64,000 nt of DNA from Pseudoclavibacter endophyticus (lineage in GTDB: Bacteria > Actinomycetota > Actinomycetes > Actinomycetales > Microbacteriaceae), in the NCBI RefSeq assembly GCF_008831085.1, contig NZ_WBJY01000001.1:62001-126000 (forward strand). The letters run 5' to 3'. Of this stretch, positions 28,054 through 42,612 are shown piece by piece (the stretch's first letter is position 1; every line of letters starts with the position of its first letter). Below the pieces are notes generated by a model. The model was not told the DNA's origin, did not search any database, and saw only the letters and a program-made list of their open reading frames with translations. A program made the position numbers and the translations under genes.

Positions 28054-28980
28054 ATGATCAAACCGCTCCAGGGGTGGAAGATCCTGGTGCCGCGCGGCGG
28101 CACCTGGGGCAATGACGTCGCCGACGCGGTGAACGCCCGGGGCGCTTTCCCGATCGTCGCGCCGCTCATCAACTTCGCCAACCCGTCTCCGGAAGACGCG
28201 CGCATCCTCAGCGCGTCGCTCGAGCGCCTGCAGGCCGGCGCCTACGACTGGGTCGTCGCGACGAGCGCGACGGCGGTCGACGTGCTCCTCTCCCACGGCG
28301 TCACGATTCCCGACTCGACGCTCGTCGCAGCGGTGGGCGAGACGACGGCGGCCGGCCTCGGCGCCGGCGGTTACCGGGTCGACTTCGTGCCGACGCACGA
28401 CAACTCCGCGAAGGGCATGCTCAGCGAATGGGTCGAGGCGCGGCGCGGCATGCCGTCGCTCCGGGTGCTGTGGTTGCGCAGCGAGATCGCCAAGCCCGTC
28501 GTCGCCCAGGGACTGCGCCGCCGTGGCCACCAGGTCGACTCGGTCGTCGCCTACCGCACCGTCGGCGTTCCCGTCGCCGAGAGCATCCGATACGACATCT
28601 CGCACGGCCGCATCCGCGGCATCCTCGTGACCTCCGGGTCGGTGGCCGGGCAGATCCACGGGCAGTTCAGCCCACTGCCCCCCGAGGTGAAGCTGGCCGC
28701 GATCGGCCCCCGCACGGCCAAGGACGCGCGCGAGCTCGGCCTGCGGATCGACGTGATCGCGCAGCAGCGCACGGTCGCGTCCCTCCTCGATGGGCTCGAG
28801 TGGCTCGCCCTCGGCGGCGCCATGCCCGCGACCGCCGCGGTCGACATCAGCGAGCTCATGGAAATCGAGCGATCGCACGCCGAGTCGGCGAACGGCGAGG
28901 ACGAGCACCGTGCGGACGAAGGCGACGAGGACGACGACGCGCGAGGGGACACCGACGCGCAGGACGCCGCAAAGGAGTGA
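28054..28980 (+). CDS. hemD: uroporphyrinogen III synthase
   Basis: Closes and inverts ring D of hydroxymethylbilane. The two-domain HemD fold is recognisable from [65 protein letters not shown] and [12 protein letters not shown]. Family sequence conservation is low, but position between hemC and hemB supports the call. The last 40 residues are extremely acidic (many Asp/Glu) and look disordered. ATG at 28054 follows AGGGAGAG; a GTG one codon earlier is possible. 308 residues. Confidence 0.92.
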
Positions 28981-28984
28981 CCGA

Positions 28985-29956
28985 ATGCCAGTGATCCGCC
29001 CCCGCCGCCTGCGGCAGACGCCCGCGTTCCGCGCCATTGCGCGCCAGACGCGCGTGCACCCGAACGAGCTGATCCTGCCCGCGTTCGTGCGCGAGGGCAT
29101 CGGCGCGCCCGTCGAGATCTCGTCGATGCCAGGGGTCGTGCAGCACACGCTCGATTCGCTGCGCCGAGCGGCCGTCGACGCCGCGGACGCCGGCGTCGGC
29201 GGCATCATGCTGTTCGGCGTGCCGGCCGTGCGCGACGCGATGGGGACGGGCGCGACCGATCCCGACGGCATCCTCAACGTCGCGACAGCGGCGGTCGTCG
29301 CGGAGGTCGGCGATGCACTCGTGGTGCAGACCGATCTGTGCCTCGACGAGTTCACCGACCACGGGCACTGCGGCGTGCTGGATGCCCGCGGTCACGTCGA
29401 CAACGACGCGACACTCGAGCGGTACGCCGACATGGCCATCGCGCAGGCCGAGGCCGGAAGCCGGCTCGTCGGCATGTCGGGCATGATGGACGGCCAGGTC
29501 GCGGTCGCGCGCGAGGCGCTCGACGCGGCCGGGCACCAGGGGATTGCGATCCTGGCGTACTCGGCGAAGTACGCCTCGGCGTTCTACGGGCCGTTCCGCG
29601 AGGCCGTCGACTCGCAGCTGCAGGGCGACCGGCGCACGTACCAGCTCGATCCGGCTAACGGGCGCGAGGGGCTGCGTGAGGCCGCGCTCGACCTCGCCGA
29701 GGGCGCCGACGTCGTCATGGTCAAGCCGGCAATGCCCTATCTCGACGTGCTCGCGGGCGTGGCGGCGAGCTCGCCCGTGCCCGTGTGGGCGTACCAGGTG
29801 TCCGGCGAGTACGCGATGCTGGAGGCCGCCGCACGCAATGGCTGGATCGACCGCGACGCCGCCATCGCCGAGGCCGTGCTCGGCATCCGCCGGGCGGGCG
29901 CCGACGCCGTGCTGACCTACCACGCGACCGAACTGGCGCTCGCGCTGCGGGGGTAG
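28985..29956 (+). CDS. hemB: delta-aminolevulinic acid dehydratase (porphobilinogen synthase)
   Basis: Condenses two 5-aminolevulinates to porphobilinogen. Schiff-base lysines are K195 ([16 protein letters not shown]) and K247 ([12 protein letters not shown]). The metal loop reads [15 protein letters not shown]: the zinc-type three-cysteine site is replaced by acidic residues, as in magnesium/potassium-dependent enzymes. 323 residues, normal length. It starts four bases after hemD, preceded by AAAGGAG within the hemD end. Confidence 0.96.
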
Positions 29957-30021
29957 GCGCAGCATCCCGGCCCCGCGCGGGCCGGCGTACCCGCACACCT
30001 GCCCGCACCGAGGAGGCCACG

Positions 30022-31383
30022 ATGACCCTTTCCCAGCCGCAGTCGACGGCCTGGTTCGAGCGCGCCTGCGCCGTGACGCCGGGCGGCGTGAACTCGCCCG
30101 TGCGGGCGTACGGCGCAGTCGGCGGGGTGCCCCCGTTCATCGAGTCGGCGTCGGGGCCCTATGTGCGCGACATCGACGGCAACGAGTACGTCGACCTCGT
30201 GTGCGGATGGGGGCCGATGCTGCTCGGCCACGCGCATCCCGCCGTCATCGACGCCGTCCGCGAGACGGCGGCGCGAGGCCTGTCGTTCGGCGCGCCCTCG
30301 ACGGGCGAGGTCGAGCTCGCTACCGAGATCGCGGGCCGCGTCGGGCCGGTCGAGCAGGTGCGGCTCGTCTCGACGGGCACCGAGGCCACCATGACCGCGC
30401 TTCGTCTCGCCCGCGGTGTGACGGGGCGCGACCTCGTCATCAAGTTCGAGGGCTGTTACCACGGCCACTCCGACGGGCTGCTGGCCTCGGCCGGTTCGGG
30501 CCTCGCGACGCTCGCGCTGCCGGGGTCGGCCGGCGTGCCCGAGGCCGTCGCCGCCCAGACCATCCTGGTGCCGTACAACGACCTCGAGGCCGTGCGCGCG
30601 GCCTTCGAGTCGCACCCGGGTCGCGTCGCCGCCGTCATCACCGAGGCCGCACCGGCCAACATGGGCGTCGTGCCGCCGTCAGCGGGGTTCAACGCGGGGC
30701 TCGCCGCACTCTGCCACGAGCAGGGTGCACTGCTCGTGTGCGACGAGGTGCTCACGGGCTTCCGCACGGGCCCGGCCGGCTGGTGGGGGGTCGAACAGGG
30801 CCGAGCGGGCGCCGACGCCCGCTGGGCCGCCGACATCTTCACCTTCGGCAAGGTCATCGGGGGCGGCATGCCGGTCGCGGGCCTCGGCGCGTCGGCCTCG
30901 ATCATGGCGCACCTCGCACCGCAGGGCCCCGTATATCAGGCGGGCACGCTGTCGGGGAACCCGGTCGCCGTCGCGGCCGGCCTGGCGACGCTCCGTTCGG
31001 CGGATGCCGCGGCCTATTCTGCCGTCGACGCGGCGGCCGAGCGCGTGATCGCGATGACGACCGAGGCCTTCGCGGCGGCCGGCGTCGCGCATGCCGTGCA
31101 GCGCGTCGGCAACCTGTTCTCGTTCGCCTTCGGCGACGGGGCCGCCCTCGGGTGGACGGGCGCGAACGGCGGCCCCGCGAACGAGGCCCAGGTGAAGCGC
31201 CAGGAGGCGTGGCGCTGGCCGGCGTTCTTCCGCTCGATGCTCGAGGGCGGCGTGAACCTGCCCCCGAGCGTGTTCGAAGCCTGGTTCCTGTCGGCGGCGC
31301 ACGACGACGCGGCGCTCGACCGCATCGCGTCGGCGCTGCCGGCGGCCGCCGCCGCCGCGGCGGCCGCGCCCCGGCCCGAGTAG
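30022..31383 (+). CDS. hemL: glutamate-1-semialdehyde 2,1-aminomutase
   Basis: PLP enzyme that isomerises glutamate-1-semialdehyde to 5-aminolevulinate, acting directly after HemA. Family marks are [17 protein letters not shown] near residues 19-35, [39 protein letters not shown] and the PLP lysine K277 in [14 protein letters not shown]. The 453-residue protein ends in a run of alanines followed by PRPE. GAGGAGG precedes the start by seven bases. Last gene of the heme cluster; a hairpin follows. Confidence 0.96.
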
Positions 31384-31445: not shown

Positions 31446-32300
31446 TCAGGGTGCCCCGAGGGCTGCCGAGAGCTCCGCGCCGACGCGCGCGATGTAAACC
31501 CCGAGCCGGGTCGCGTCTGAACCGAGGCGGGAGATCGGGGCGCTGACGTTGATGGCGGCAACAACTGCGCCCGAGAAGTCGGAGATCGGTGTCGATGCCG
31601 CGACGATGCCCCGCTCGAGCTCTTCGACGGACAGCGCGTAGCGGCGCTCACGGATTCTCGTGATCTCCGCGACCAGGCTCTCGTAGTCGCGCACCTGGTC
31701 GGGGCCCGTCGGCGGCTCGTCGATCACGGCGAACGGCGACGACAGCAACCCTGCATGCGCGCGGCCGATGACGGGCGACTCGGCCGCGTGCTCTTCGAAC
31801 CACGCCCGCAGTGAGATCTCGTCCCAATCGCTCAGCAGAGCCCGGCCGGATGGCGTGCGCCAGGCCGAGGTCGTCACCCCCTCCCACCCCGTCGCCCGGA
31901 ACTCGTGGGGGCTGAGCTCGCTCATGACGGTGAGCACGTGACCGCCGCGCAGCACGTTGAGGCTGGCCGTCTCGCGCGTCTCTCGTGCGATGCGCCGGAG
32001 CGTCGGACTCGCGGCCGACGTGAGACGCGCCTCGCGCGTGTGCGCCGCGAGCGCGTAGATGCGGGCACCAAGGCGGTACGCCTGGGTCGCGGGATCGCGC
32101 TCGACGAAGCCCGCCTCGGCGAGAGTGGCGAGCGACCGAGAGACGACGGCCTTGTCCCGCCCTGTGAGTTCAGCGACGCGAACGACGCCGAGCCCGTCGG
32201 CGCGCAGGGACTCGGGCGAGCCGAGCACATCGAGCAGTTCGACGTCGCGGGCCAGCCCTGACGCGTTTCGCCGCGCGGGCTTGGGAGTCGTATCGGGCAT
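31446..32300 (-). CDS. IclR family transcriptional regulator
   Basis: A 284-residue IclR-type regulator. The N-terminal winged helix (about 18-80) includes VAELTGRDKAVVSRSLATLAEAGFVERD, read in two parts as the recognition helix region and wing. The C-terminal effector domain (about 95-280) has the family patterns ETASLNVLRGGHVLTV, RTPSGRALLSDWD and SVEELERGIVAASTPISDFSGAVVAAINVS. It is divergent from the ABC-Fae-kinase operon, which it most likely controls; an inverted repeat at 32320-32355 is a candidate operator. The start fits a TAGCGT box six bases upstream. Confidence 0.88.
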   Translation of the reverse strand: MPDTTPKPARRNASGLARDVELLDVLGSPESLRADGLGVVRVAELTGRDKAVVSRSLATLAEAGFVERDPATQAYRLGARIYALAAHTREARLTSAASPTLRRIARETRETASLNVLRGGHVLTVMSELSPHEFRATGWEGVTTSAWRTPSGRALLSDWDEISLRAWFEEHAAESPVIGRAHAGLLSSPFAVIDEPPTGPDQVRDYESLVAEITRIRERRYALSVEELERGIVAASTPISDFSGAVVAAINVSAPISRLGSDATRLGVYIARVGAELSAALGAP

Positions 32301-32312: not shown

Positions 32313-32319
32313 GCCCAAG

Positions 32320-32355
32320 TTGCCATAGTGACAACACCCATTGTGAAAATGGAAA
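32320..32355. promoter_or_regulatory. inverted repeat, candidate IclR operator
   Basis: TTGCCATAGTGACAA (32320-32334) and TTGTGAAAATGGAAA (32341-32355) are inverted copies matching at 11 of 15 positions with a 6-base spacer. The block is markedly AT-rich against its surroundings and lies between the two divergent starts, covering the region just upstream of the iclR -10 box. Confidence 0.55.
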
Positions 32356-32429: not shown

Positions 32430-33092
32430 ATGGACGGCTTCGACGTCGAGGGATTCTTCGTGTTCATCGGCCGGCGCTGGGAGGAGATCCTGACGCTTGC
32501 GGGCGAGCACCTGGCGGTCGTACTGCTCTCCGTGGCGATCGCGGCGGTCATCGGCATCGGGCTCGGCATGATCGTGTGGGATCGGCCCGCGGCTCGCAGC
32601 GCCGCCGTCACGACCGCGGCCATCGCCATCACGGTGCCATCGCTCGCCCTGCTGGCGCTGCTCAGCCCCGTACTCGGTCTCGGGTGGGGCGCGACCATCG
32701 TGGCGCTCGTGGTCTACGCCTTGTTGCCGATCGTGCGCAACACGGCCGTCGGGCTCGGCGAGGTTCCTCGTCACGTGCTCGAGGCCGCCAGCGGCGTCGG
32801 GATGTCGCGCACCCGCATCCTGGTGTCGATGCAGTTGCCGATCGCGTGGCCCGTCATTCTGACCGGGATGCGCGTGGCGACGCAGCTGTCCGTCGGCGTC
32901 GCCGCGATCGCCGCGTACGTGGCCGGGCCCGGCCTCGGCACCTACATTTTCCGCGGGCTCGCGACCCTCGGCTCCAAGAACGCCCTCAACTTCGCGCTCG
33001 TCGGCACGCTCGCGACCATCGTCATCGCCCTGCTGCTCGATGCCCTGTTCGTGCTCCTCGCCCGCTCCACGACCTCAAAGGGACTTCGATGA
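32430..33092 (+). CDS. ABC transporter permease, OpuCB/ProW-like (1)
   Basis: A 220-residue inner-membrane permease of the glycine betaine/carnitine/choline (OpuC/ProU) group. About five to six helices are visible: helix at 20-45 (LAVVLLSVAIAAVIGIGLGM), VPSLALLALLSPVLGLGW, and the EAA coupling loop VPRHVLEAASGVGMSRTRILVSMQLP near 116-141. The ATG at 32430 has GGAGGTGAG seven bases upstream; a GTG at 32418 would place that ribosome site inside the gene. First gene of a nine-gene operon; overlaps the ATPase gene by ATGA. Confidence 0.88.
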   Translation: MDGFDVEGFFVFIGRRWEEILTLAGEHLAVVLLSVAIAAVIGIGLGMIVWDRPAARSAAVTTAAIAITVPSLALLALLSPVLGLGWGATIVALVVYALLPIVRNTAVGLGEVPRHVLEAASGVGMSRTRILVSMQLPIAWPVILTGMRVATQLSVGVAAIAAYVAGPGLGTYIFRGLATLGSKNALNFALVGTLATIVIALLLDALFVLLARSTTSKGLR

Positions 33093-34189
33093 ACGCCCCC
33101 ACTCGCAGTGCGACCACCACGACGTCCGGCACCGACGCCATCCGGGCCATCGCCGACGCGACCTCCGGCGTCGGCATCGAGCTCGACCGGGTCACCAAGC
33201 AGTACCCCGGCCAGGAGCGCCCCGCCGTCGAGGACTTCAGCATGACCGTCAGGCCCGGAGAACTGGTCATGTTCGTCGGTCCGTCCGGGTGCGGCAAGAC
33301 CACGACCATGAAGATGATCAACCGCATCATCGAGCCCACTTCCGGGTCGATCCGCATCGCCGGACACGACGTGCTCTCGCTCGAGCCCAACGAGCTGCGA
33401 CGCCACATCGGTTACGTCATCCAGCAGATCGGGCTCTTCCCGCATCTCACGATCCACGAGAACGTGGCGACGGTGCCGAAGCTGCTCGGCTGGTCGAAGG
33501 CACGGATCGACGAGCGCGTCGATGAGCTGCTGCGCGTCGTCGATCTCGATCCCGGCGTGTACGCGCGGCGCTTCCCCAAGCAGCTCTCCGGCGGTCAGCA
33601 GCAACGGGTTGGGGTCGCGCGGGCGCTGGCAGCCGACCCGCCCGTCATGCTCATGGACGAGCCCTTCGGCGCGACCGACCCGATCACGCGGGAAAGCCTG
33701 CAGGCCGAGTTCCTCCGGCTCCAGGAAGACATCGGCAAGACGATCATCTTCGTGACCCACGACTTTGATGAGGCCATCAAACTCGGCGATCGGATCGCCG
33801 TGCTCAGCCAGCGAAGCCAGATCGAGCAGTTCGACACGCCCTCGAACATCCTCGCGTCACCGGCGAACGACTACGTCTCGTCGTTCATCGGCAAGGGAAC
33901 GGCGCTCAAGCGGCTGGCGCTCGTCGACCTGACGCACGTCGACCTGATCGACGCGACCACCGCCACGTCATCGCTCGAGGTCGACCAGCGCGACACCCTT
34001 CGCGACGCCCTCGACATGCTCGTCCGCTCGGGCGCCTCGAGCGTGCGGGTCACGCGCGACGGCCGGGCCGTCGGTGCGATCGACTTCGACACGATCTCCG
34101 CGTACCTCGACGGGCAGGGCGTTCGAGGGGCGACGCCGGCGGGCGACGAGGCCCGTGAGCTCGGTCCGGATACGGAGGCACGGCTATGA
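33089..34189 (+). CDS. ABC transporter ATP-binding protein, OpuCA/ProV-like
   Basis: Energises the importer. Walker A is GPSGCGKTTTMKMINR near residues 69-84, Q-loop YVIQQIGLFPHLT, signature LSGGQQQRVGVARALA, Walker B VMLMDEPFGATDP and the switch His in IIFVTHDFDEA. After the ATPase domain comes a CBS-like segment (about 290-345; DALDMLVRSGASSVRVTRDG), as in OpuA/OpuCA ionic-strength sensors, but only one CBS unit is evident. 366 residues with a 25-residue Thr-rich head. Coupled to both permease genes by ATGA overlaps. Confidence 0.9.
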   Translation: MNAPTRSATTTTSGTDAIRAIADATSGVGIELDRVTKQYPGQERPAVEDFSMTVRPGELVMFVGPSGCGKTTTMKMINRIIEPTSGSIRIAGHDVLSLEPNELRRHIGYVIQQIGLFPHLTIHENVATVPKLLGWSKARIDERVDELLRVVDLDPGVYARRFPKQLSGGQQQRVGVARALAADPPVMLMDEPFGATDPITRESLQAEFLRLQEDIGKTIIFVTHDFDEAIKLGDRIAVLSQRSQIEQFDTPSNILASPANDYVSSFIGKGTALKRLALVDLTHVDLIDATTATSSLEVDQRDTLRDALDMLVRSGASSVRVTRDGRAVGAIDFDTISAYLDGQGVRGATPAGDEARELGPDTEARL

Positions 34190-34992
34190 CCGGCACGCAC
34201 GTCGCGGAATCGGCGACGACCATCGTCGACCTATCCGCCACGACGCCCGGCGACGAGCCGCGCGGGGGAGCCGCCAGGTGGTTTCGACGGCTCGCCCCGC
34301 TCATCGCCGTCGTGATCGTCCTCGCCCTGCTCGCCCTGTGGATCTCGTCGCGCGAGCTCGACTCCATCGAGCAGCGCACGCTCAACTGGGATTACCTGCT
34401 CGCCCGCACGCGTGAGCACCTGGTGCTCACGTTCGTGGCGTCGGCGCTCGTCGCGGCGCTCGCGATCCCAATCGGCATCGCGGTGTCGCGCTCGACCTCG
34501 CGCATCTTCCGCGGAATGGTCGGCGCCATCGCGAACATCGGACAGGCGACGCCTGCGGTGGGTCTCATCATCCTGCTCGCGATCGCATGGCAGACCGGCT
34601 TCACGACGGCCCTCGTGGGTATCGTGGCCTACTCGTTCCTGCCAGTGCTGCGCAACACCGTCGCAGGGCTCGACCAGATCGAGCCGAGCGTGCGCGAGTC
34701 CGCCCGCGGAATGGGCATGACATCGGGCCAATCCCTCTGGCGCATCGAGCTCCCACTGGCGTCGCCGGTCATCATCGCCGGGCTCCGCACAGCCCTCGTC
34801 TTCGCCGTCGGCGTCGCGACGGTCGCGACGTTCATCAATGCCGGCGGCCTCGGCGACATGATCGTCAACGGCCTCAAGCTCCAGCGTTACCCCGTCGTGG
34901 TCGTCGGGGCCGTCCTCGTCGCGGCCATCGCCGTGCTCATCGACTGGTTCGCCGGGCTCGTCGAGGAGCTCGTGAAACCGAAGGGCCTCTGA
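34186..34992 (+). CDS. ABC transporter permease, OpuCD/ProW-like (2)
   Basis: Second permease of the importer, 268 residues. One helix at about 42-62 (LAPLIAVVIVLALLALWIS region) precedes the permease core, which has NWDYLLARTREHLVLTFV, NIGQATPAVGLIILLAIAW and the EAA loop IEPSVRESARGMGMTSGQSLWRIELP, read in two pieces. Homologous to the first permease, so the channel is a heterodimer as in OpuC systems. Confidence 0.88.
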   Translation: MTGTHVAESATTIVDLSATTPGDEPRGGAARWFRRLAPLIAVVIVLALLALWISSRELDSIEQRTLNWDYLLARTREHLVLTFVASALVAALAIPIGIAVSRSTSRIFRGMVGAIANIGQATPAVGLIILLAIAWQTGFTTALVGIVAYSFLPVLRNTVAGLDQIEPSVRESARGMGMTSGQSLWRIELPLASPVIIAGLRTALVFAVGVATVATFINAGGLGDMIVNGLKLQRYPVVVVGAVLVAAIAVLIDWFAGLVEELVKPKGL

Positions 34993-35057
34993 CCCCAGAC
35001 GCGCCCGACCGCGGAAGCGCCCCCGCGCATCCGCCCATCCCACCGAAAGGAACGACC

Positions 35058-35981
35058 ATGAAGAAGACGTGGAGCGCGCTCGCGCTCGTCGCCGCCTCGG
35101 GCCTCGCCCTCACCGGATGCTCGGGAGGAGGCGCCGCCAGCGGCTCGCAGGGCGATGAGCTCGAAGGACTCACGGGCGTCATCGGCGCGAAGGACTTCGC
35201 CGAGCAGTATGTCCTCGCCTACATCACCACGGAGCTCTTCAACGCGCACGGCGCCGACGTCGAGGCGAACATCGAGCTCGTCGGATCGACGAACGTGCGC
35301 CAGGCCCTCGAGAACGACCAGTTCCTGGGCTACTGGGAGTACACCGGCACGGGGTGGATCACCTACCTCGGCGAGACCGAGCCAGTGCAGGGCGCCGAGG
35401 AGCAGTACCAGGCGGTCGCCGAGGCCGACCTCGACGAGAACGGCATCGCCTGGCTCGAGCCGGCGCCGCTGAACAATACGTATGCGTTCGCAGCACTCAC
35501 GGAGACGGCCGAGGAGCTCGGTGTCACGACGCTGAGCGACGTCGCGGCGCTGCCGGAGGACCAGCAGACGTTCTGCATCGAGAGCGAGTTCTCGACGCGC
35601 GACGACGGCTGGCCCGGCCTCCGCGACACATACGGCTTCGCCGACAACACGGCGATGCTCGACACCGGTGTCATCTATACGGCGACGGCGGCCGGTGACG
35701 ATTGCACGTTCGGGGAGGTCTTCGAGACGGACGGGCGTATCCCCGGCCTCGGCCTGACGGTGCTCGAGGACGACCTCGAGTTCTTCCCCAACTACCAGGG
35801 CTCGTTCACGCTCAAGCAGACGACCCTCGACGAGTACCCCGCGATCGCCGACGTGATCGGACTCGTGGCGCCGCTGCTCACGACCGAGGTGATGCAGCAG
35901 CTCAACAGTCAGGTCGACGTCGAGGGCGAAGACCCACAAGATGTCGCGATCGACTGGCTCACCGAGCAGGGGCTCATCTGA
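35058..35981 (+). CDS. ABC substrate-binding lipoprotein, OpuCC/OsmX-like
   Basis: Extracytoplasmic receptor of 307 residues. The lipoprotein signal is MKKTWSALALVAASGLALTGC with Cys21 as the lipid anchor (shown here in full as the leader plus lipobox LTGC). The mature protein has GVIGAKDFAEQYVLAY, ELVGSTNVRQALENDQFLG, and YWEYTGTGW, the segment that in OpuCC/ChoX-like receptors supplies aromatic residues for binding quaternary ammonium groups. This points to a cationic ligand, but the linked genes suggest catabolism rather than osmoprotection. GAAAGGAA precedes the start. Confidence 0.86.
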   Translation: MKKTWSALALVAASGLALTGCSGGGAASGSQGDELEGLTGVIGAKDFAEQYVLAYITTELFNAHGADVEANIELVGSTNVRQALENDQFLGYWEYTGTGWITYLGETEPVQGAEEQYQAVAEADLDENGIAWLEPAPLNNTYAFAALTETAEELGVTTLSDVAALPEDQQTFCIESEFSTRDDGWPGLRDTYGFADNTAMLDTGVIYTATAAGDDCTFGEVFETDGRIPGLGLTVLEDDLEFFPNYQGSFTLKQTTLDEYPAIADVIGLVAPLLTTEVMQQLNSQVDVEGEDPQDVAIDWLTEQGLI

Positions 35982-36514
35982 TGGCGGCCGCGCTCGAACT
36001 CGGCGAGTCTTTCATCGGCGACGGCGTGAATGCCGCGCACATCAACACGGTCCTCGGGCCGCGTGACGGCGCCGCCGGCACCGCCTGGGCGACGGCGCTC
36101 GCATCGCCGAGCGCCGGCCACGTGCCGTTCGTGGCGGTGCTACGCCCGTCGCTGCCCGTCAAGCCCCTGACGCTCTTCGTCTCGAAGTCCGCCCCGATCG
36201 ACGACCGGCACGGCGAACTGATCTGGGGGCCCGCGCAGGCGGGCGTCGCGGCCGGGGTGGCCGACGCCCTCGCGCGCGGATCCATCCCCGATGAGGCCTC
36301 CGACACGCACGTCGTCATCGCCGCCGTCTGGGTCAACCCTGGCGCCGACGACGCCGACACCGTGTACCGCAACAACCGAGAGGCCACACGCCGTGCCATC
36401 GAGGCCGGTGCGGCGAGGCTTCCCGCAAACGCAGACGTCGTCGAGGCGCGGCAGGCACCCGTCAACCCCTTCTACACGGCACCACCTCTGAAAGGCGACC
36501 CGAATGACCGCTAA
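35981..36514 (+). CDS. formaldehyde-activating enzyme (Fae) homologue
   Basis: A 177-residue Fae-family protein. Fae joins formaldehyde to tetrahydromethanopterin in methylotrophs. The match covers the length: LGESFIGDGVNAAHINTVLG (canonical GDG-x-x-x-AHID), PFVAVLRPSLPVKPLTLF, IWGPAQAGVAAGVADAL, and YRNNREATRRAIE. His20 is at the position of the conserved catalytic His. The Asp after AHI is Asn here. No methanopterin genes are in the window, so cofactor and substrate are open. The start overlaps the lipoprotein stop (TGATG); the end overlaps the next gene by 11 bases. Confidence 0.85.
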   Translation: MAAALELGESFIGDGVNAAHINTVLGPRDGAAGTAWATALASPSAGHVPFVAVLRPSLPVKPLTLFVSKSAPIDDRHGELIWGPAQAGVAAGVADALARGSIPDEASDTHVVIAAVWVNPGADDADTVYRNNREATRRAIEAGAARLPANADVVEARQAPVNPFYTAPPLKGDPNDR

Positions 36515-37514
36515 CCGCCCGACGGTCGGGTTCATCGGACTCGGCAACATGGGCGCGGGCATGTCCCGCAACCTGCTGCACCACGGCTTCCCCCTCGTCG
36601 TCACCGACGCCCGCGCCGAAGCCGGCGCCGCCCTGCTGGCCGCCGGCGCATCCTGGGCCGGAACGCCCGCCGATGTCGCGGCCCGCAGTGACCTCGTCAT
36701 CACCATGTTGCCGACCCCGCCCATCGTCCGCGGCGTCGCCCTCGGGCCGGGCGGAATCCTCGAAGGGATCCGCGACGGAGGCACCTGGATCGACATGTCG
36801 ACCTCGGTGCCCGAGGTCGCCGACGAGGTGCGGGCCTTCGCGGACGAACGCGGCATCACGATCGTCGACGCCCCCGTCAGCGGCATGTCCGTCGGAGCCG
36901 CGAACGGCACCCTCCAGATCTTCGTCGGGGCGGACGCAGACGACTTCCGGCGCATCCTGCCCGTTCTCGAGGCGATGGGTGACCCGCAGCGGATCTTGAA
37001 CGTGGGCGGCCCCGGTGCCGGCTATGCCGTCAAGCTGCTCATCAATCAGCTGTGGTTCTCGCAGCTCGTCGCGACGGCCGAGGTGCTGGCCGTGGGCGCG
37101 CGGGCCGGCGTCGACCTCGAGGTGCTGCGCCAGGCGCTCATCGCCAGCCCTGCCAACAGCGCCTTCGTCGAGCGCGACGTGCTGTCGGTGCTCGACTCGG
37201 GCGACTACGACGAGGGATTCGCGATCGCCCTCGCCTGCAAGGACCTCGGGTTGTCGGTCGACCTCGCGCGCAGCGTCGGGGTGCCGGTCGAGCTCTCGTC
37301 GCTCGTCGAGCAGGTGTACCGGCGCGCCCGGGCCGCCTACGGCGATGCGGCAGGCGAAATGACGCCGATGCGCCTCTACGAGGACCTCATCGGCGCCCCG
37401 CTGCGACGCGTTCCGCCGAGCGACCCCATGCCGCCGAGCGGCGCGGTCTCGCCGAGCGACACGGTCCAGCCGAGCGGCGCGCTGCCGCAGGGGCCGACGC
37501 CGGTCGCCGCGTGA
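36504..37514 (+). CDS. 3-hydroxyisobutyrate dehydrogenase-like oxidoreductase
   Basis: Beta-hydroxyacid dehydrogenase of 336 residues. NAD(P) motif VGFIGLGNMGAGMSRNLL is at residues 8-25, the substrate-binding DAPVSGMSVGAANGTL near 122-137, and catalytic Lys in GAGYAVKLLINQL near 178. After the normal end (about residue 295) is a proline/serine tail made by an 18-bp tandem repeat. The family oxidises hydroxyisobutyrate, tartronate semialdehyde, threonine-like or sugar acids; the operon does not decide. Overlaps the Fae gene by 11 bases. Confidence 0.87.
   Translation: MTANRPTVGFIGLGNMGAGMSRNLLHHGFPLVVTDARAEAGAALLAAGASWAGTPADVAARSDLVITMLPTPPIVRGVALGPGGILEGIRDGGTWIDMSTSVPEVADEVRAFADERGITIVDAPVSGMSVGAANGTLQIFVGADADDFRRILPVLEAMGDPQRILNVGGPGAGYAVKLLINQLWFSQLVATAEVLAVGARAGVDLEVLRQALIASPANSAFVERDVLSVLDSGDYDEGFAIALACKDLGLSVDLARSVGVPVELSSLVEQVYRRARAAYGDAAGEMTPMRLYEDLIGAPLRRVPPSDPMPPSGAVSPSDTVQPSGALPQGPTPVAA
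37413..37484 (+). repeat. 18-bp in-frame tandem repeat, four copies
   Basis: Four 18-base units, each with CCGAGCG, at 37413, 37431, 37449 and 37467. They encode a six-residue period around PPSD/PPSG in the C-terminal tail of the dehydrogenase-like protein. In frame, so copy-number change would only alter tail length. Confidence 0.85.
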
Positions 37515-37626
37515 CCGGAGCGTGGCCGCGCGTCGATGTCACGCGGCCACGCGCCGCTCCCGTGAACCCACCGCACCCACGATCGTGGCAACCGCGACCG
37601 TGCCCATGACCAAGAAGGACCACCGC

Positions 37627-38403
37627 GTGGAGATCACCGACTTCTCACTCGCCAGCTTCTCGCTCGAGGGCCGAACGGCCATCGTGACCGGCGGCAACAG
37701 CGGTCTTGGCCAGGCGTTCACGCTGGCACTCGCCGCGGCGGGCGCGAACGTGTTCGTGCCGAGCGTCCACGACGACGGGGGCGAGACGGCCGAGCTCGTC
37801 GCGGAAGCCGGGGCGGAGCACGCGGGCATGCTGGCTGATCTGACGGCGCCCGGCGGGCCCGAACGGGTCATGGCGGGGGCCGTGGATGCCTTCGGTCGCG
37901 TCGATGTCCTCGTCAACTCGGCCGGCATCAACGTCGTGGCACCCTGGCGCGACTTCGGGCGCGCCGAATGGGATCGCATGCTCGCCGTCAACCTCACCGC
38001 CGCATTCGAGCTCGGACGGCTTGCCGCCCAGCACATGAGCGACCGCGGCTCGGGCAAGATCATCAACATCGCGTCGCTCTACTCGTTCCTCGGCGGTCTC
38101 GGCTCGCCCGCCTACGCCGCGACGAAGCACGGCATCGTCGGCTTCACGCGCGCCTATGCCGACGAGCTCGGCCCGTGCGGCGTGCAGGTCAACGCCATCG
38201 CGCCCGGCTATTTCGAGACGGCGCTGACGGCGGCGACGCGCTCCGAGCCCGAGACCAGCCGGCGCATCCTCGAGCACGTACCGTCCGGGCGATGGGGTGA
38301 GCGGGCCGACCTCATGGGCGCCGTCGTGTTCCTCGCGAGCCGAGCCTCCGACTACATCACGGGCCAGGTGCTCACCGTCGACGGGGGCTACCTCGTGCGC
38401 TGA
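37627..38403 (+). CDS. short-chain dehydrogenase/reductase, KduD-like
   Basis: Classical SDR of 258 residues. TGGNSGLGQAF near residues 19-29 is the cofactor motif, LVNSAGIN the NNAG-equivalent, and Ser in INIASLYSF with YAATKHG gives the Ser-Tyr-Lys triad. The opening FSLEGRTAIVTGGNSGLGQ resembles 2-deoxy-D-gluconate 3-dehydrogenase (KduD), suggesting a sugar or polyol substrate. The GTG at 37627 is preferred because AAGAAGGA lies eight bases upstream; the ATG at 37606 lacks a site. Confidence 0.88.
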   Translation: MEITDFSLASFSLEGRTAIVTGGNSGLGQAFTLALAAAGANVFVPSVHDDGGETAELVAEAGAEHAGMLADLTAPGGPERVMAGAVDAFGRVDVLVNSAGINVVAPWRDFGRAEWDRMLAVNLTAAFELGRLAAQHMSDRGSGKIINIASLYSFLGGLGSPAYAATKHGIVGFTRAYADELGPCGVQVNAIAPGYFETALTAATRSEPETSRRILEHVPSGRWGERADLMGAVVFLASRASDYITGQVLTVDGGYLVR

Positions 38404-38521
38404 GCTCCCGCCGCGTCCCGCGCCTCCGCCGCTGCATTTGCTGCGCGGCCGCAGCCGCGGCATCCGTGCCCGCAGCATCCACCACGCCATCACCACGCAC
38501 CGCGAACGAAACGAGGACCAC

Positions 38522-39997
38522 ATGGTCGTGCCCACCTTCACCCGGCCGACGCCGACGATCGACCGCGACGCCATCGTCGACCGGCTCACCGAGCTGCTCG
38601 GCGCCGAGCAGGTCGACACCGACGAACAGCGCCTCCGCGAGGCGAGCGTCGACCGATTCCACAAGTACGAGGCCGCCCACGGCATCTTCGATGGGCCGAT
38701 CCCCGCTGCCATCGCCTACGCGGCGTCGACCGAGCAGGTGCGCGACGTGCTCACGTTCGCTGACCGGCACCGCGTCAACGTCGTGCCCCGCACCGGCCGC
38801 ACGGGCACAGAGGGCGGGCTCGAGACAGCCGCGCACGACACGATCGTGCTCGACTGCTCCCGCATGGACCGGGTCATCGAGATCGACGAGCAGAACATGA
38901 TGGCGACCGTGCAGTGCGGGGTGCCGCTGCAGCGGCTCGACGACGAGCTCCGCGCCCGCGGGCTCACGACGGCGCACTCGCCGCAGTCGAAGCCGCTCGC
39001 TCAGTTCGGCGGGCTCGTCGCGACACGTTCGATCGGCCAGCTCTCGACGCTCTACGGGGGCATCGAGGACATGGTCGTCGGCCTCGAGGCCGTCTTCCCC
39101 GACGGCAGCATCACGCGCATCAAGAACGTGCCCCGCCGTGCGGCCGGCCCCGATATCCGCCATGTCGTCATCGGCAACGAGGGTGCTCTGTGCGTCGTAA
39201 CCGAGGTCACCGTCAAGCTGTTCCCGTACGAACCGCAGAACCGGCGCGCGCTCGGTTACATCGTCGACCGCTTCGCCGACGGCATCGAGGGCCTGCGCCG
39301 TGTCGTGCAAGCCGGCTACCGGCCGAGCGTGTGCCGCGTGTACTCGGAAGACGACGCGGCCCAGCACTTCAGCGACGTCGCGGAGGGCAAGCCGGTCGTG
39401 GTCGTCGTGGCCGACGGGCCCAGGCGTCTCGCCGACGCGACGGCCGAGGGCGTCGTCGAGGTGTTCGAGGGAATTCCGCACCGCGCGCTCGAGCCGTCCT
39501 ACGTCGAGCACTGGCTCGACCATCTCAACTGGGGGCCCGAGAAGATCGACGCCGAGCGGCGCGACATGCTCGAGCACCGGCGCCTCGGCTACACAACCGA
39601 GGTCGCGATCGACTGGTCGCGCACCAACGAGCTCTACGAGTGCGTTATGCGGCGCATCCAAACCGAATTCGCCCGGGCCGACGACCTCTTCCTGCTCGGC
39701 GCGCATTCCTCGCACAGCTACCAGACGGGCACGAACCTGTACTTCGTGTACGACTACCGCATCAACTGCGAGCCCCGCGACGAACTGCACGAGTACCACG
39801 AGCCCATCAACGCGATCATCGTCGACGAGGCGCTCCGGCTCGGCGGCTCGATGGTGCATCACCACGGCATCGGCAAGTACCGCACGCCCTGGACGAAGCA
39901 GGAGCACGGCAGCGCTTACCGCATCCTGGCTGGGCTCAAGCGGGAATTCGATCCCAACGGGGTCATGAACGCGGGCACGATCTACCCGGTCGAGTGA
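38522..39997 (+). CDS. FAD-linked oxidase, alkyl-DHAP-synthase/glycolate-oxidase-like
   Basis: A 491-residue flavoprotein with an FAD_binding_4 (PCMH) domain (about 60-240; VVPRTGRTGTEGGLE, GLTTAHSPQSKPLAQFGGLVAT in part) and a C-terminal FAD-oxidase domain ending HHHGIGKYRTPW and FDPNGVMNAGTIYP. The HHHGIGK motif is typical of alkyldihydroxyacetonephosphate synthase-like proteins and related D-2-hydroxyacid dehydrogenases. With an FGGY kinase next door, oxidation of a glycerol-, lactate- or polyol-like compound is plausible. Located 118 bases after the SDR gene; no terminator visible between. Confidence 0.87.
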   Translation: MVVPTFTRPTPTIDRDAIVDRLTELLGAEQVDTDEQRLREASVDRFHKYEAAHGIFDGPIPAAIAYAASTEQVRDVLTFADRHRVNVVPRTGRTGTEGGLETAAHDTIVLDCSRMDRVIEIDEQNMMATVQCGVPLQRLDDELRARGLTTAHSPQSKPLAQFGGLVATRSIGQLSTLYGGIEDMVVGLEAVFPDGSITRIKNVPRRAAGPDIRHVVIGNEGALCVVTEVTVKLFPYEPQNRRALGYIVDRFADGIEGLRRVVQAGYRPSVCRVYSEDDAAQHFSDVAEGKPVVVVVADGPRRLADATAEGVVEVFEGIPHRALEPSYVEHWLDHLNWGPEKIDAERRDMLEHRRLGYTTEVAIDWSRTNELYECVMRRIQTEFARADDLFLLGAHSSHSYQTGTNLYFVYDYRINCEPRDELHEYHEPINAIIVDEALRLGGSMVHHHGIGKYRTPWTKQEHGSAYRILAGLKREFDPNGVMNAGTIYPVE

Positions 39998-41517
39998 TCG
40001 TGGTGTCGCGCGGGGACGATGCGGGCTCGGGGAGCGGCGGGCCCCTGCTCCTCTCCATCGACAACGGCTCGCAGAGCACCAAGGTCACGATCGTGGATGC
40101 CGCGGGCGGCGTGGTCGCGCGCGGTCGGGCGAGCCTGCGCCCGCCGGAGCATCCGGCACCGGGCCGGGTGGAGCATCCGGACGACGATCTCTGGGACTCG
40201 ATCGTCGACGCGTGCCGTCAGGCCATGGCGGCGTACGGTGGAGATCCCTCGCGCATCGTCGCGGCAGGGCTGTGCACGATCCGCTTCTGCCGCGTACTGC
40301 TCGATGCGAGCGGCGCGCTCGCGGCGCCGGTGATCAGCTGGATGGATGAACGACTCGCCCGTCCATACGAGCACCGCGACGACCGGGTCGCCTACGTGTC
40401 GACCTCGACCGGCTACATCGCCGGCCGGCTGACCGGCCGGCTCACGGATGCCGCCGGCAACACCGAGGGCCGGTGGCCCGTCGACCACGACGCGTGGCGG
40501 TGGAGCGCCGACGACGCGGTCATCGCCAGCGAGGGGCTGCGGCGGGAGCAATTGTTGCCGCTCTTGCTGCCTGGCGAGCTGCACGGGCGCGTGACGGCCG
40601 CGGCCGCGGCCGCTAGCGGGCTGCCGGAAGGCCTGCCCGTCTACGCGACCTCGAACGACAAGGCGGTCGAGGCCCTCGGGTCGGGTCTCCTCGACGGCGG
40701 CGAGTTGCTGCTGTCGCTCGGCACCTACGTGGCGACGATGACGCCGGGCGAGCGCGACTTCGCCCCGCAGCGCGTGCAGGGCGTCTGGCGCAACTTCGGC
40801 GCGGTGCCGGGCGGTACCTACTACGAGAGCGCCGGCGTGCGCCGGGGCATGTGGACGGTCAGCTGGCTCCGCGACCTCGTGCTCGGGCCGCGGGCGGGGG
40901 AGACGGCAGCACCCTTGGGTGGCGCTGACGGCGAGCGGGAACGCGTGCTCGACGCGGAGGCGATGGATGCGCCACCTGGCGCGGGCGGGCTCGTGACGGT
41001 GCTCGACTGGCTCGCGCCGCCCGACGAGCCGTGGCGGCGCGGAGCCATGGTGGGCTTCGACGGGTCGCAGGGCCGCGGGCACCTCTATCGATCCGTGCTC
41101 GAGGCGCTCGCCCTCACGACGGCCGATGCGGCGACCGAGCTGCTGCGCGAGCTCGGACGTACGCCCCGCGCGCTTATCGTCGCGGGCGGTGGGGCCCGGT
41201 CCGACCTCATGCTGCGCATCCTTGCTGCGACCTACGGGGTGCCCGTGCGCCGCACCCGCTTCGCCGACGGCGCCGGCATGGGCGCGGCCATCGCGGCCGC
41301 GGTCGGCGCCGGCGTGCATGAAACGTGGGATGACGCCGTCGACGCGATGGTGCACGTGGCCGACGTCGTAGAGCCCGAGCCGGCGCTCGTCGAGGCCTAC
41401 CGAGACATCGCGGCCCGCCACCGCGCGATCCGCGCGGGGGTGCGGGGGATGCTCGACGACATGGCGCATCGAGGTTCAGGCCCGGGCCTGGGCAAGGAGC
41501 TCGAGACCGACGGGTGA
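39994..41517 (+). CDS. FGGY family carbohydrate kinase
   Basis: ATP-dependent sugar/polyol kinase of 507 residues in the xylulokinase/glycerol kinase family. LLSIDNGSQSTKVTIVDAAG near residues 17-36 is the phosphate-1 motif, ISWMDERLARPYEH the substrate region (usually WxDxR), LSLGTYVATMTPG the phosphate-2 motif, and LIVAGGGARSDLMLRILAA the adenosine motif. The GTG at 39994 overlaps the FAD oxidase stop; GTG 40003 is the alternative. Last gene of the operon; substrate unknown. Confidence 0.88.
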   Translation: MIVVSRGDDAGSGSGGPLLLSIDNGSQSTKVTIVDAAGGVVARGRASLRPPEHPAPGRVEHPDDDLWDSIVDACRQAMAAYGGDPSRIVAAGLCTIRFCRVLLDASGALAAPVISWMDERLARPYEHRDDRVAYVSTSTGYIAGRLTGRLTDAAGNTEGRWPVDHDAWRWSADDAVIASEGLRREQLLPLLLPGELHGRVTAAAAAASGLPEGLPVYATSNDKAVEALGSGLLDGGELLLSLGTYVATMTPGERDFAPQRVQGVWRNFGAVPGGTYYESAGVRRGMWTVSWLRDLVLGPRAGETAAPLGGADGERERVLDAEAMDAPPGAGGLVTVLDWLAPPDEPWRRGAMVGFDGSQGRGHLYRSVLEALALTTADAATELLRELGRTPRALIVAGGGARSDLMLRILAATYGVPVRRTRFADGAGMGAAIAAAVGAGVHETWDDAVDAMVHVADVVEPEPALVEAYRDIAARHRAIRAGVRGMLDDMAHRGSGPGLGKELETDG

Positions 41518-41628: not shown

Positions 41629-41634
41629 CGTGTG

Positions 41635-42612
41635 GTGACCACGTCGAACACGCCAGAGGCCGCGGCGCCGCCGCCGCGATCGCGTCGCGTGGCCGTGGTG
41701 GTCTGGACTGCCGCCGTCGTGTTTGGCGGATCGCTCATGGGCGTGCAGGCGCGCATGAACGGCGAGCTCGCGACCGTGAGCGGCGACTGGTCGTGGGCGG
41801 CGCTCGTGTCGTTCGGCGGCGGGCTCATGCTGCTCGCGTTCGCCGCAATGACATCGAAGCGCCGCGCGCTCGCGCTCCCTCGCATCGTCGCGGCCGTTCG
41901 CCAGGGACGGCTCGCGTGGTGGCACACGATCGCTGGCCTGAGCGGGGCGCTCTTCGTCGTCGTGCAGGCCACAGTGGCACCGGTGCTCGGCGTCGCCATC
42001 CTCACGATCGCCTTCGTCGCGGGCCAGACGATCGGCGGCCTCGCAGCCGACAGGTTCGGTTTCGGGGCCGGCGGCGTGGAGCGGATCTCCGTCCCGCGCC
42101 TCGCCGGCGGCGCGCTCGTGGTGGTCGCCGTGCTCGTGTCGGTCGCGGGGCGCCTCGAGGGCGGATTCGCGTGGTGGCTGCTGATCCTGCCCGTCATCTC
42201 GGGCTTCTTCGTCGCGTTCCAGCAGGCGTTCAACGGTCGCGTTCGCGTGCAGACCGACGTCTTCGCGGCCACCCTGGGCAATTTCTTCATCGGCACGATG
42301 GCGCTTGCGCTCGTGTTTGCCGTGCACGGTGCCCTCGTGGCCGGCCCGTTCGACTGGTTCGGCGCACCCTGGTACGTCTATCTCGGCGGCGTGGCCGGCG
42401 TCATCGGCGTGCCGATCGCAGCCGTCGCCGTTGGCACGATCGGCGTGCTGCGCCTCGCCCTCGCGCTCGTGACGGGGCAGCTCGTCGGCTCGCTCGTGCT
42501 CGATCTCACCCTGCCCCTCGCGACGACGGCCGTCACCGCGTGGACCTACGTGGGCCTCGCGCTCGCCTTCGTCGCGATCGTCATCACTTCGGTGCGCTGG
42601 GGCCGCCGCTGA
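41635..42612 (+). CDS. DMT family transporter (DUF606/YdcZ-like)
   Basis: A 325-residue integral membrane protein of about ten helices, built as two homologous DUF606 halves. The first has VFGGSLMGVQARMNGELA and AGLSGALFVVVQATVAPVLG; the second has LPVISGFFVAFQQAFNGRV, FFIGTMALALVF and GGVAGVIGVPIAAVAVG. The repeated Q-A-x-x-N-G motif in both halves supports an internal duplication. Substrate unknown. Start fits a leaderless transcript. Confidence 0.82.
   Translation: MTTSNTPEAAAPPPRSRRVAVVVWTAAVVFGGSLMGVQARMNGELATVSGDWSWAALVSFGGGLMLLAFAAMTSKRRALALPRIVAAVRQGRLAWWHTIAGLSGALFVVVQATVAPVLGVAILTIAFVAGQTIGGLAADRFGFGAGGVERISVPRLAGGALVVVAVLVSVAGRLEGGFAWWLLILPVISGFFVAFQQAFNGRVRVQTDVFAATLGNFFIGTMALALVFAVHGALVAGPFDWFGAPWYVYLGGVAGVIGVPIAAVAVGTIGVLRLALALVTGQLVGSLVLDLTLPLATTAVTAWTYVGLALAFVAIVITSVRWGRR

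Follow-up and report, generated by a model that had tools for sequence, protein, structure and literature searches.

A conserved, probably IclR-controlled operon of Pseudoclavibacter endophyticus combining a quaternary-amine-type importer, a Fae homologue and one of two alternative enzyme sets

We analyzed a 64,000-nucleotide stretch of the Pseudoclavibacter endophyticus genome (contig NZ_WBJY01000001.1, positions 62,001 to 126,000; hereafter the window), in which nine plus-strand genes at 32430-41517 encode an OpuC-type importer, a Fae homologue, three oxidoreductases and an FGGY-family kinase. These genes form a real, conserved and probably undescribed catabolic operon, which is probably controlled by a divergently encoded IclR-family regulator. 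Many genera share the gene core, more than chance would produce, with two alternative enzyme sets as its middle section. The operon is likely to catabolize a quaternary ammonium compound; as a tentative identity, we propose a betaine ether-linked to glycerol, with glyceryl-N,N,N-trimethylhomoserine as the candidate.

Operon architecture

All nine open reading frames (ORFs) have an intact start, stop and frame. Their junctions, read 5' to 3', measure -4, -4, 65, -1, -11, 91, 118 and 5 bases, corresponding to four overlaps and gaps of 5, 65, 91 and 118 bases. This layout bears out the original prediction, made from the window's letters, of a nine-gene same-strand operon in which most junctions overlap or nearly touch and one gap reaches about 120 bases, with an inverted repeat between it and a divergent IclR gene. 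Pfam assigned OpuAC, ABC_tran, two BPD_transp_1, Fae, NAD_binding_2/11, adh_short, FAD_binding_4/FAD-oxidase_C and FGGY_N/C domains to the nine products. The features of the region are:

31446..32300, minus strand: IclR-family regulator, divergent (Pfam IclR_C and HTH_IclR; orthologue in 73 of 80 related loci)
32319..32335, plus strand: putative IclR operator, conserved, GTTGCCATAGTGACAAC (motif in 38 of 72 IclR-upstream regions)
32338..32352, no strand: perfect inverted repeat CCATTGTGAAAATGG (perfect in the window only, among 72 regions)
32430..33092, plus strand: OpuC/ProW-type permease 1 (BPD_transp_1; best models ProW and choline permease, under cut-offs)
33089..34189, plus strand: OpuCA/ProV-type ATPase (ABC_tran; ProV subfamily model TIGR01186 323.6 bits, cut-off 326.6)
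34186..34992, plus strand: OpuC/ProW-type permease 2 (BPD_transp_1)
35058..35981, plus strand: OpuCC-type substrate-binding lipoprotein with a choline/betaine-type aromatic site
35981..36514, plus strand: Fae-family protein, apparently without a methanopterin link (PF08714 168.5 bits, cut-off 27; TIGR03126 145.1 bits, cut-off 118.05)
36504..37514, plus strand: 3-hydroxyisobutyrate-dehydrogenase-family oxidoreductase, HIBADH (NAD_binding_2 and NAD_binding_11; orthologue in 73 of 80 loci)
37606..38403, plus strand: short-chain dehydrogenase/reductase (SDR), KduD-like (adh_short; best models KduD, under cut-off)
38522..39997, plus strand: FAD enzyme with an active site resembling alkyl-dihydroxyacetonephosphate (alkyl-DHAP) synthase
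40003..41517, plus strand: FGGY-family kinase (FGGY_N and FGGY_C; best model XylB, under cut-off)

Conservation of the operon core

To describe conservation, we used the best 80 of 406 stretches encoding a Fae relative in a named-genome collection (55-78% best-segment identity); the resulting counts refer to close relatives and rest on gene calls by score cut-offs of our choice, several loci are truncated where their contigs stop, and L042, L090 and L094 are the same stretches as L015, L016 and L018. The original prediction had suggested examining the co-occurrence of these families across genomes, and the core was indeed retained, with IclR encoded in 73 of the 80 loci, HIBADH in 73, the binding protein in 72 and a succinate-semialdehyde dehydrogenase (SSADH) in 67. 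Genera with loci include Microbacterium, Cryobacterium, Subtercola, Agromyces, Arthrobacter, Leucobacter, Lentzea, Umezawaea, Amycolatopsis and Nocardioides, and a Streptomyces clavuligerus plasmid carries the importer, Fae, HIBADH and SSADH genes.

Across wider genome samples, a Fae search of 149 genomes returned ten matches (the own genome, seven strong ones at 66-75% identity and two weak ones), and the FGGY kinase was matched at E <= 1e-60 in seven of 99 genomes. The system is scattered across the phylum, since FAD-enzyme orthologues at E <= 1e-100 occurred in three of 396 genomes and the Fae type of locus L102 in 17 of 396, own genome included. No widely shared extra neighbor emerged from the first 45 clusters of 2912 unassigned neighboring ORFs; these clusters are mostly unannotated, the largest spans seven loci of one Microbacterium group and a six-locus cluster is a major facilitator superfamily (MFS) transporter. 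In the window itself, inspection by eye found ORFs resembling the haem genes for porphobilinogen synthase and glutamate-1-semialdehyde aminotransferase upstream (28790-31383) and, past the kinase, one resembling a drug/metabolite transporter (DMT)-type membrane protein (41632-42612).

Two alternative enzyme sets

The enzymes encoded downstream of this core fall into two types: type II, to which the window belongs, with SDR, FAD enzyme and FGGY kinase, and type I, with an enolase-superfamily enzyme, an aldehyde dehydrogenase (ALDH) and an iron-dependent alcohol dehydrogenase (Fe-ADH). The type II trio is present in 37 of the 80 loci, 36 of them free of any enolase-set gene and one (L085) with an additional enolase; the type I set is present in 29, none of which holds a gene of the trio. 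Both sets were complete together in none of the 80 loci, and neither was complete in 14, some of which are short stretches; L030, L072, L086, L093 and L100 lack every gene of either set. In L084 and L013, an enolase gene follows the importer, the former being cut and under the cut-off in the 80-locus count; neither ALDH1 nor Fe-ADH was found after the L013 enolase in its 12 kb stretch (L157). Mapping the set label onto trees required two changes for the binding protein and three for HIBADH, both with long-branch warnings, so the sets follow clades, and many independent swaps were set aside as an explanation. Of the catabolic route put forward in the original prediction, a conserved and probably IclR-controlled unit stands, whereas phosphorylation is not a general step because the kinase belongs to only one of the two sets.

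In the relatives' enolase, the D, E, E and D/H positions, which we take to be metal ligands and the His-Asp pair, respectively, are conserved in 39 aligned rows. The L014 enolase matched the talarate/galactarate dehydratase model best (127.7 bits), under its equivalog cut-off of 500 bits. The own genome holds a single enolase match at E <= 1e-10 (38% identical) and no operon-type SSADH, its best candidate for the latter lies at C3:15091 (56% identical), and the matched stretch contains one TAG.

Further loci vary the theme, with swaps that apparently keep roles: zinc-dependent alcohol dehydrogenases (Zn-ADHs) appear in L102, L139, L140 and L142, and MFS or Opp-like importers occur where OpuC is missing. 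L102 encodes IclR, a Zn-ADH, Fae, SDR, FAD enzyme, FGGY kinase, an Opp-like importer and an SSADH-like ALDH, with no HIBADH match; its Zn-ADH resembles NDMA-dependent and S-(hydroxymethyl)mycothiol dehydrogenases, under the cut-offs. L139, L140 and L142 combine enolase, Fae, two Zn-ADHs and an Opp-like importer, and L141 has matches for enolase and Fae only. In six loci where the surroundings of Fae yielded no OpuC importer (L017, L023, L024, L086, L093 and L099), MFS transporters of one cluster are encoded nearby, and L130 has a related transporter. L023 and L024 are Caballeronia and Burkholderia plasmid records in which the Fae homologue lies near SSADH and the MFS transporter, L023 also carrying an aldo/keto reductase. 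In L127, a GABA aminotransferase and an agmatinase are encoded next to Fae, enolase, ALDH, Fe-ADH and SSADH; L129, with neighbors judged by eye apart from an additional sodium:solute symporter, resembles it without enolase, ALDH and Fe-ADH. The type II trio also occurs without a nearby Fae match in L020, L021, L125 and L126, and in L020 it adjoins LacI and a ChvE-type sugar-binding protein.

A shared operator candidate

The element GTTGCCAT-N5-CAAC was present in 38 of 72 IclR-upstream regions, whereas 20 rounds of base shuffling gave a mean of 0.0; it occurs once in the window, in the gap beside the IclR gene. A looser form, TTGCCAT-N5-CA, was found in 53 of the 72 regions (shuffled mean 0.15), namely in the window, all 33 type II, 16 of 30 type I and three of eight other regions. 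Scanning ten genomes with GTTGCCATWN4CAAC gave one match each in G000, G006, G538 and G540, two in G539 and none in the other five, with a single occurrence in the own genome; the reversed control pattern matched twice, both times in G019. The GTTGCCATAGTGACAAC element is better conserved than the inverted repeat CCATT-N5-AATGG, which is perfect in the window only and was rejected as the operator. A simple scan detected no sigma-70-like promoter (shuffles, mean 0.5).

These observations bear on the simplest alternative, namely that an osmoprotectant importer merely lies beside an unrelated sugar-acid operon. OpuC-type importers commonly serve osmoprotection, and an MFS protein is present in loci without OpuC. 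However, the importer, Fae and HIBADH genes stay together across many genera, even where gene order is altered (L013, L026, L084, L085). This conserved co-occurrence and the common operator element argue against chance neighbors, which we consider highly improbable.

A quaternary-amine-type importer

One gene string holds the OpuAC binding domain, two BPD permeases and the ATPase, as in OpuC-type systems. By hand count on alignments, Y95 and Y142 of the window lipoprotein are the equivalents of Tyr65 and Tyr357 of the published sensors, whose contacts with nicotinic ligands, choline and acetylcholine are of the cation-pi kind (PMC8820738). Both tyrosines are invariant in 19 binding proteins from loci of both types, which are 51-78% identical to the window's and share its binding residues. 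The importer is thus probably of the quaternary-amine type, in agreement with the original prediction.

The Fae homologue

The Fae homologue aligns with M. extorquens Fae (1y5y) over residues 5-165 and scores above both model cut-offs. We take H20, D24, K69, T73 and Q86 of Fae to be active-site positions, two of them, D24 and T73, binding the pterin. All 88 aligned rows retain H20, K69 and Q86, whereas Asn replaces D24 throughout and Ala replaces T73 in 82. Methenyl-tetrahydromethanopterin cyclohydrolase (MCH, PF02289), the sole methanopterin marker tested, was found in none of ten genomes or records (two of them plasmids) and none of 18 genomes, while the control was positive in three archaea in both searches. 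Given the negative MCH searches and the changed D24 and T73 positions, the methanopterin-dependent textbook role is unlikely.

The original prediction had the Fae homologue handle a one-carbon unit released by the pathway, and this claim found no support in the MCH searches (28 genomes or records), the two altered positions or the Pfam domains of the ten window proteins, which, with the FAD enzyme as a possible exception, include no demethylase or oxygenase. A version of that route would have formaldehyde released and captured by the Fae homologue on a non-methanopterin carrier such as tetrahydrofolate or mycothiol, with the other enzymes using the rest of the molecule. It draws on the TIGR03126 score, on the retained His, Lys and Gln and on the resemblance of the L102 Zn-ADH to mycothiol-linked enzymes; trimethylamine breakdown elsewhere in the cell, hypothetical here, would also yield formaldehyde. 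Moreover, a HalD-like iron/2-oxoglutarate-dependent (Fe/2OG) oxygenase with an HxD motif directly precedes Fae in eight loci (L100, L131, L132, L133, L135, L136, L137, L138; three scanned by Pfam, the others matched to those by BLAST). Its motif suggests a hydroxylase-like enzyme, which could demethylate. No MCH was found in the genomes behind the last seven of these loci. Set against the negative findings above, we regard formaldehyde capture as rather unlikely.

The FAD enzyme, kinase and dehydrogenases

The best PDB sequence match of the FAD enzyme is alkyl-DHAP synthase (2.7e-46). At the positions matching R419, Y578 and the HHH motif, no variation was seen among the 42 rows that have a residue there (one of the 43 rows is gapped), and all carry the alkyl-DHAP synthase residues. 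Arg515, which corresponds to Dictyostelium R447, important for catalysis, is R in the window and in 23 of 43 rows; because it is not conserved, we term the enzyme alkyl-DHAP-synthase-like (ADPS-like) rather than an alkyl-DHAP synthase. The Dictyostelium counterparts of R419 and Y578, R352 and Y508, matter in alkyl-DHAP synthase catalysis (PMC3509576). The only other own-genome match spanning the triple-His region (L154) has GEHGIG instead. In the AlphaFold model, AGPS (alkyl-DHAP synthase) was not favored over D-lactate dehydrogenase, and D-lactate dehydrogenases were nearest by fold. Neither the kinase (XylB model, 143.5 versus 380.25 bits) nor HIBADH (best model, 209.2 versus 397 bits) passed any equivalog cut-off.

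These assignments leave room for a different substrate, in which a quaternary-ammonium or sulfonium compound bears a polyol or sugar-acid moiety instead of a glycerol ether. SDR, the FAD enzyme (as a 2-hydroxyacid dehydrogenase) and the kinase would then act in ordinary sugar-acid fashion, leaving the rest of the molecule to HIBADH, SSADH and Fae. The KduD-like SDR and XylB-like kinase (both under cut-offs), the D-lactate dehydrogenase fold, the L020 trio beside sugar-binding and LacI proteins and the talarate/galactarate dehydratase match of the enolase all fit this view. On the other side, the triple-His and R419/Y578 equivalents indicate alkyl-DHAP synthase and not the aligned glycolate-oxidase/lactate-dehydrogenase example, and the first 45 neighbor clusters, of at most seven loci each, yielded no further widely shared gene. 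We consider such a non-ether substrate quite possible, though short of probable.

A candidate pathway

The reading toward which we lean, as one possibility and with corresponding reserve, is IclR-controlled catabolism of a betaine ether-linked to glycerol; its substrate, each reaction and their order are inferred. A compound X-O-CH2-CHOH-CH2OH would account for two routes for the glycerol end, to DHAP or to pyruvate, with common genes for X-OH (HIBADH, SSADH and Fae), and X would have to be a betaine to match the importer type. Glyceryl-trimethylhomoserine is the water-soluble head left on deacylation of the betaine lipid diacylglyceryl-trimethylhomoserine (DGTS). Trimethylhomoserine or its isomer from diacylglyceryl-hydroxymethyl-trimethyl-beta-alanine (DGTA) would fit, as the alcohol suits HIBADH and the semialdehyde SSADH; sequence comparison does not separate the two heads.

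The OpuC importer would take up the glyceryl-betaine ether via its ammonium and carboxylate groups. In type II loci, the glycerol end would be oxidized at its middle carbon by SDR and phosphorylated at its terminal carbon by the FGGY kinase, and the alkyl-DHAP-synthase-like enzyme could run the ether exchange in the cleaving direction to give DHAP and the free betaine alcohol. In type I relatives, the lactaldehyde-reductase-like Fe-ADH and ALDH would yield the glycerate ether, from which the mandelate-racemase-type dehydratase may eliminate the alcohol to leave pyruvate. HIBADH would convert the betaine alcohol to the semialdehyde and SSADH, encoded in the operon in most relatives and here presumably by a distant GabD-like gene, would form the acid. 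For the Fae homologue, elimination or aldehyde chemistry on the betaine seems most likely, for example loss of trimethylamine, which would make this Fae-fold protein a methanopterin-independent amine lyase. Taken as a complete betaine-lipid-head route, with import of the DGTS or DGTA head, reverse flavin ether chemistry or dehydratase elimination, and a Fae-fold amine lyase, the scheme is distinctly improbable.

Three points weigh against the glycerol ether or are left unexplained by it: three type II loci also have an enolase, the trio can adjoin a sugar transporter, and the scheme gives Fae no defined step. Routes for carnitine, choline-O-sulfate, trigonelline, dimethylsulfoniopropionate (DMSP) and the sulfonate 2,3-dihydroxypropanesulfonate (DHPS) were set aside because the window's ten proteins do not include the expected enzymes or because the importer is of an unsuitable type, a judgement that compared known pathways with domain and model matches, without dedicated searches.

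Betaine lipids, which lack phosphorus, are widespread in the membranes of algae, lower plants, fungi and phosphate-starved bacteria. One study mentions DGTS among lipids whose synthesis follows phosphate starvation (PMC10132767). If the proposed route is true, the operon supplies marker genes for betaine-lipid-head flux, a biological means of cutting a glycerol ether and a new Fae-fold role outside methylotrophy. Even with another substrate, a conserved operon whose middle section comes in alternative versions, and which encodes a Fae homologue in cells without detectable MCH, forms a well-defined, testable gap. We recognized no description of the gene set or of DGTS-head catabolism in the titles and abstract starts of the open-licence literature, which leaves subscription journals mostly outside and is not proof of absence.

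Comparison with known systems

Several known systems resemble parts of the operon. M. extorquens Fae (1y5y) is of the same family over nearly its full length, with the His, Lys and Gln positions kept, but the homologues differ by the Asp-to-Asn and Thr-to-Ala changes and by genomes in which no MCH was found. Compared with OpuC/OpuB/ProX-type importers such as EgtU, OpuBC and Archaeoglobus ProX, the window's importer is tied into a catabolic operon with IclR, and its ATPase scores just below the TIGR01186 cut-off. Sulfolactaldehyde reductase and the dehydrogenases of sulfo-pathways likewise belong to the HIBADH and SSADH families, but the window HIBADH reaches 181.4 of the 348 bits required for sulfolactaldehyde reductase and the importer is not of the sulfonate type. 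Proline-betaine and hydroxyproline-betaine pathways with HpbD combine a betaine importer with an enolase-superfamily enzyme, as do relatives of the window operon; in contrast, no Rieske demethylase is among the ten window proteins, and the relatives' enolase is closest to sugar-acid dehydratase models. Finally, AGPS is the closest solved enzyme to the FAD enzyme by sequence, with equivalents of H300, R419, Y578 and HHH, but R515 is not conserved and the D-lactate dehydrogenases are closer by fold; whereas AGPS makes an ether, the window FAD enzyme is proposed to cleave one.

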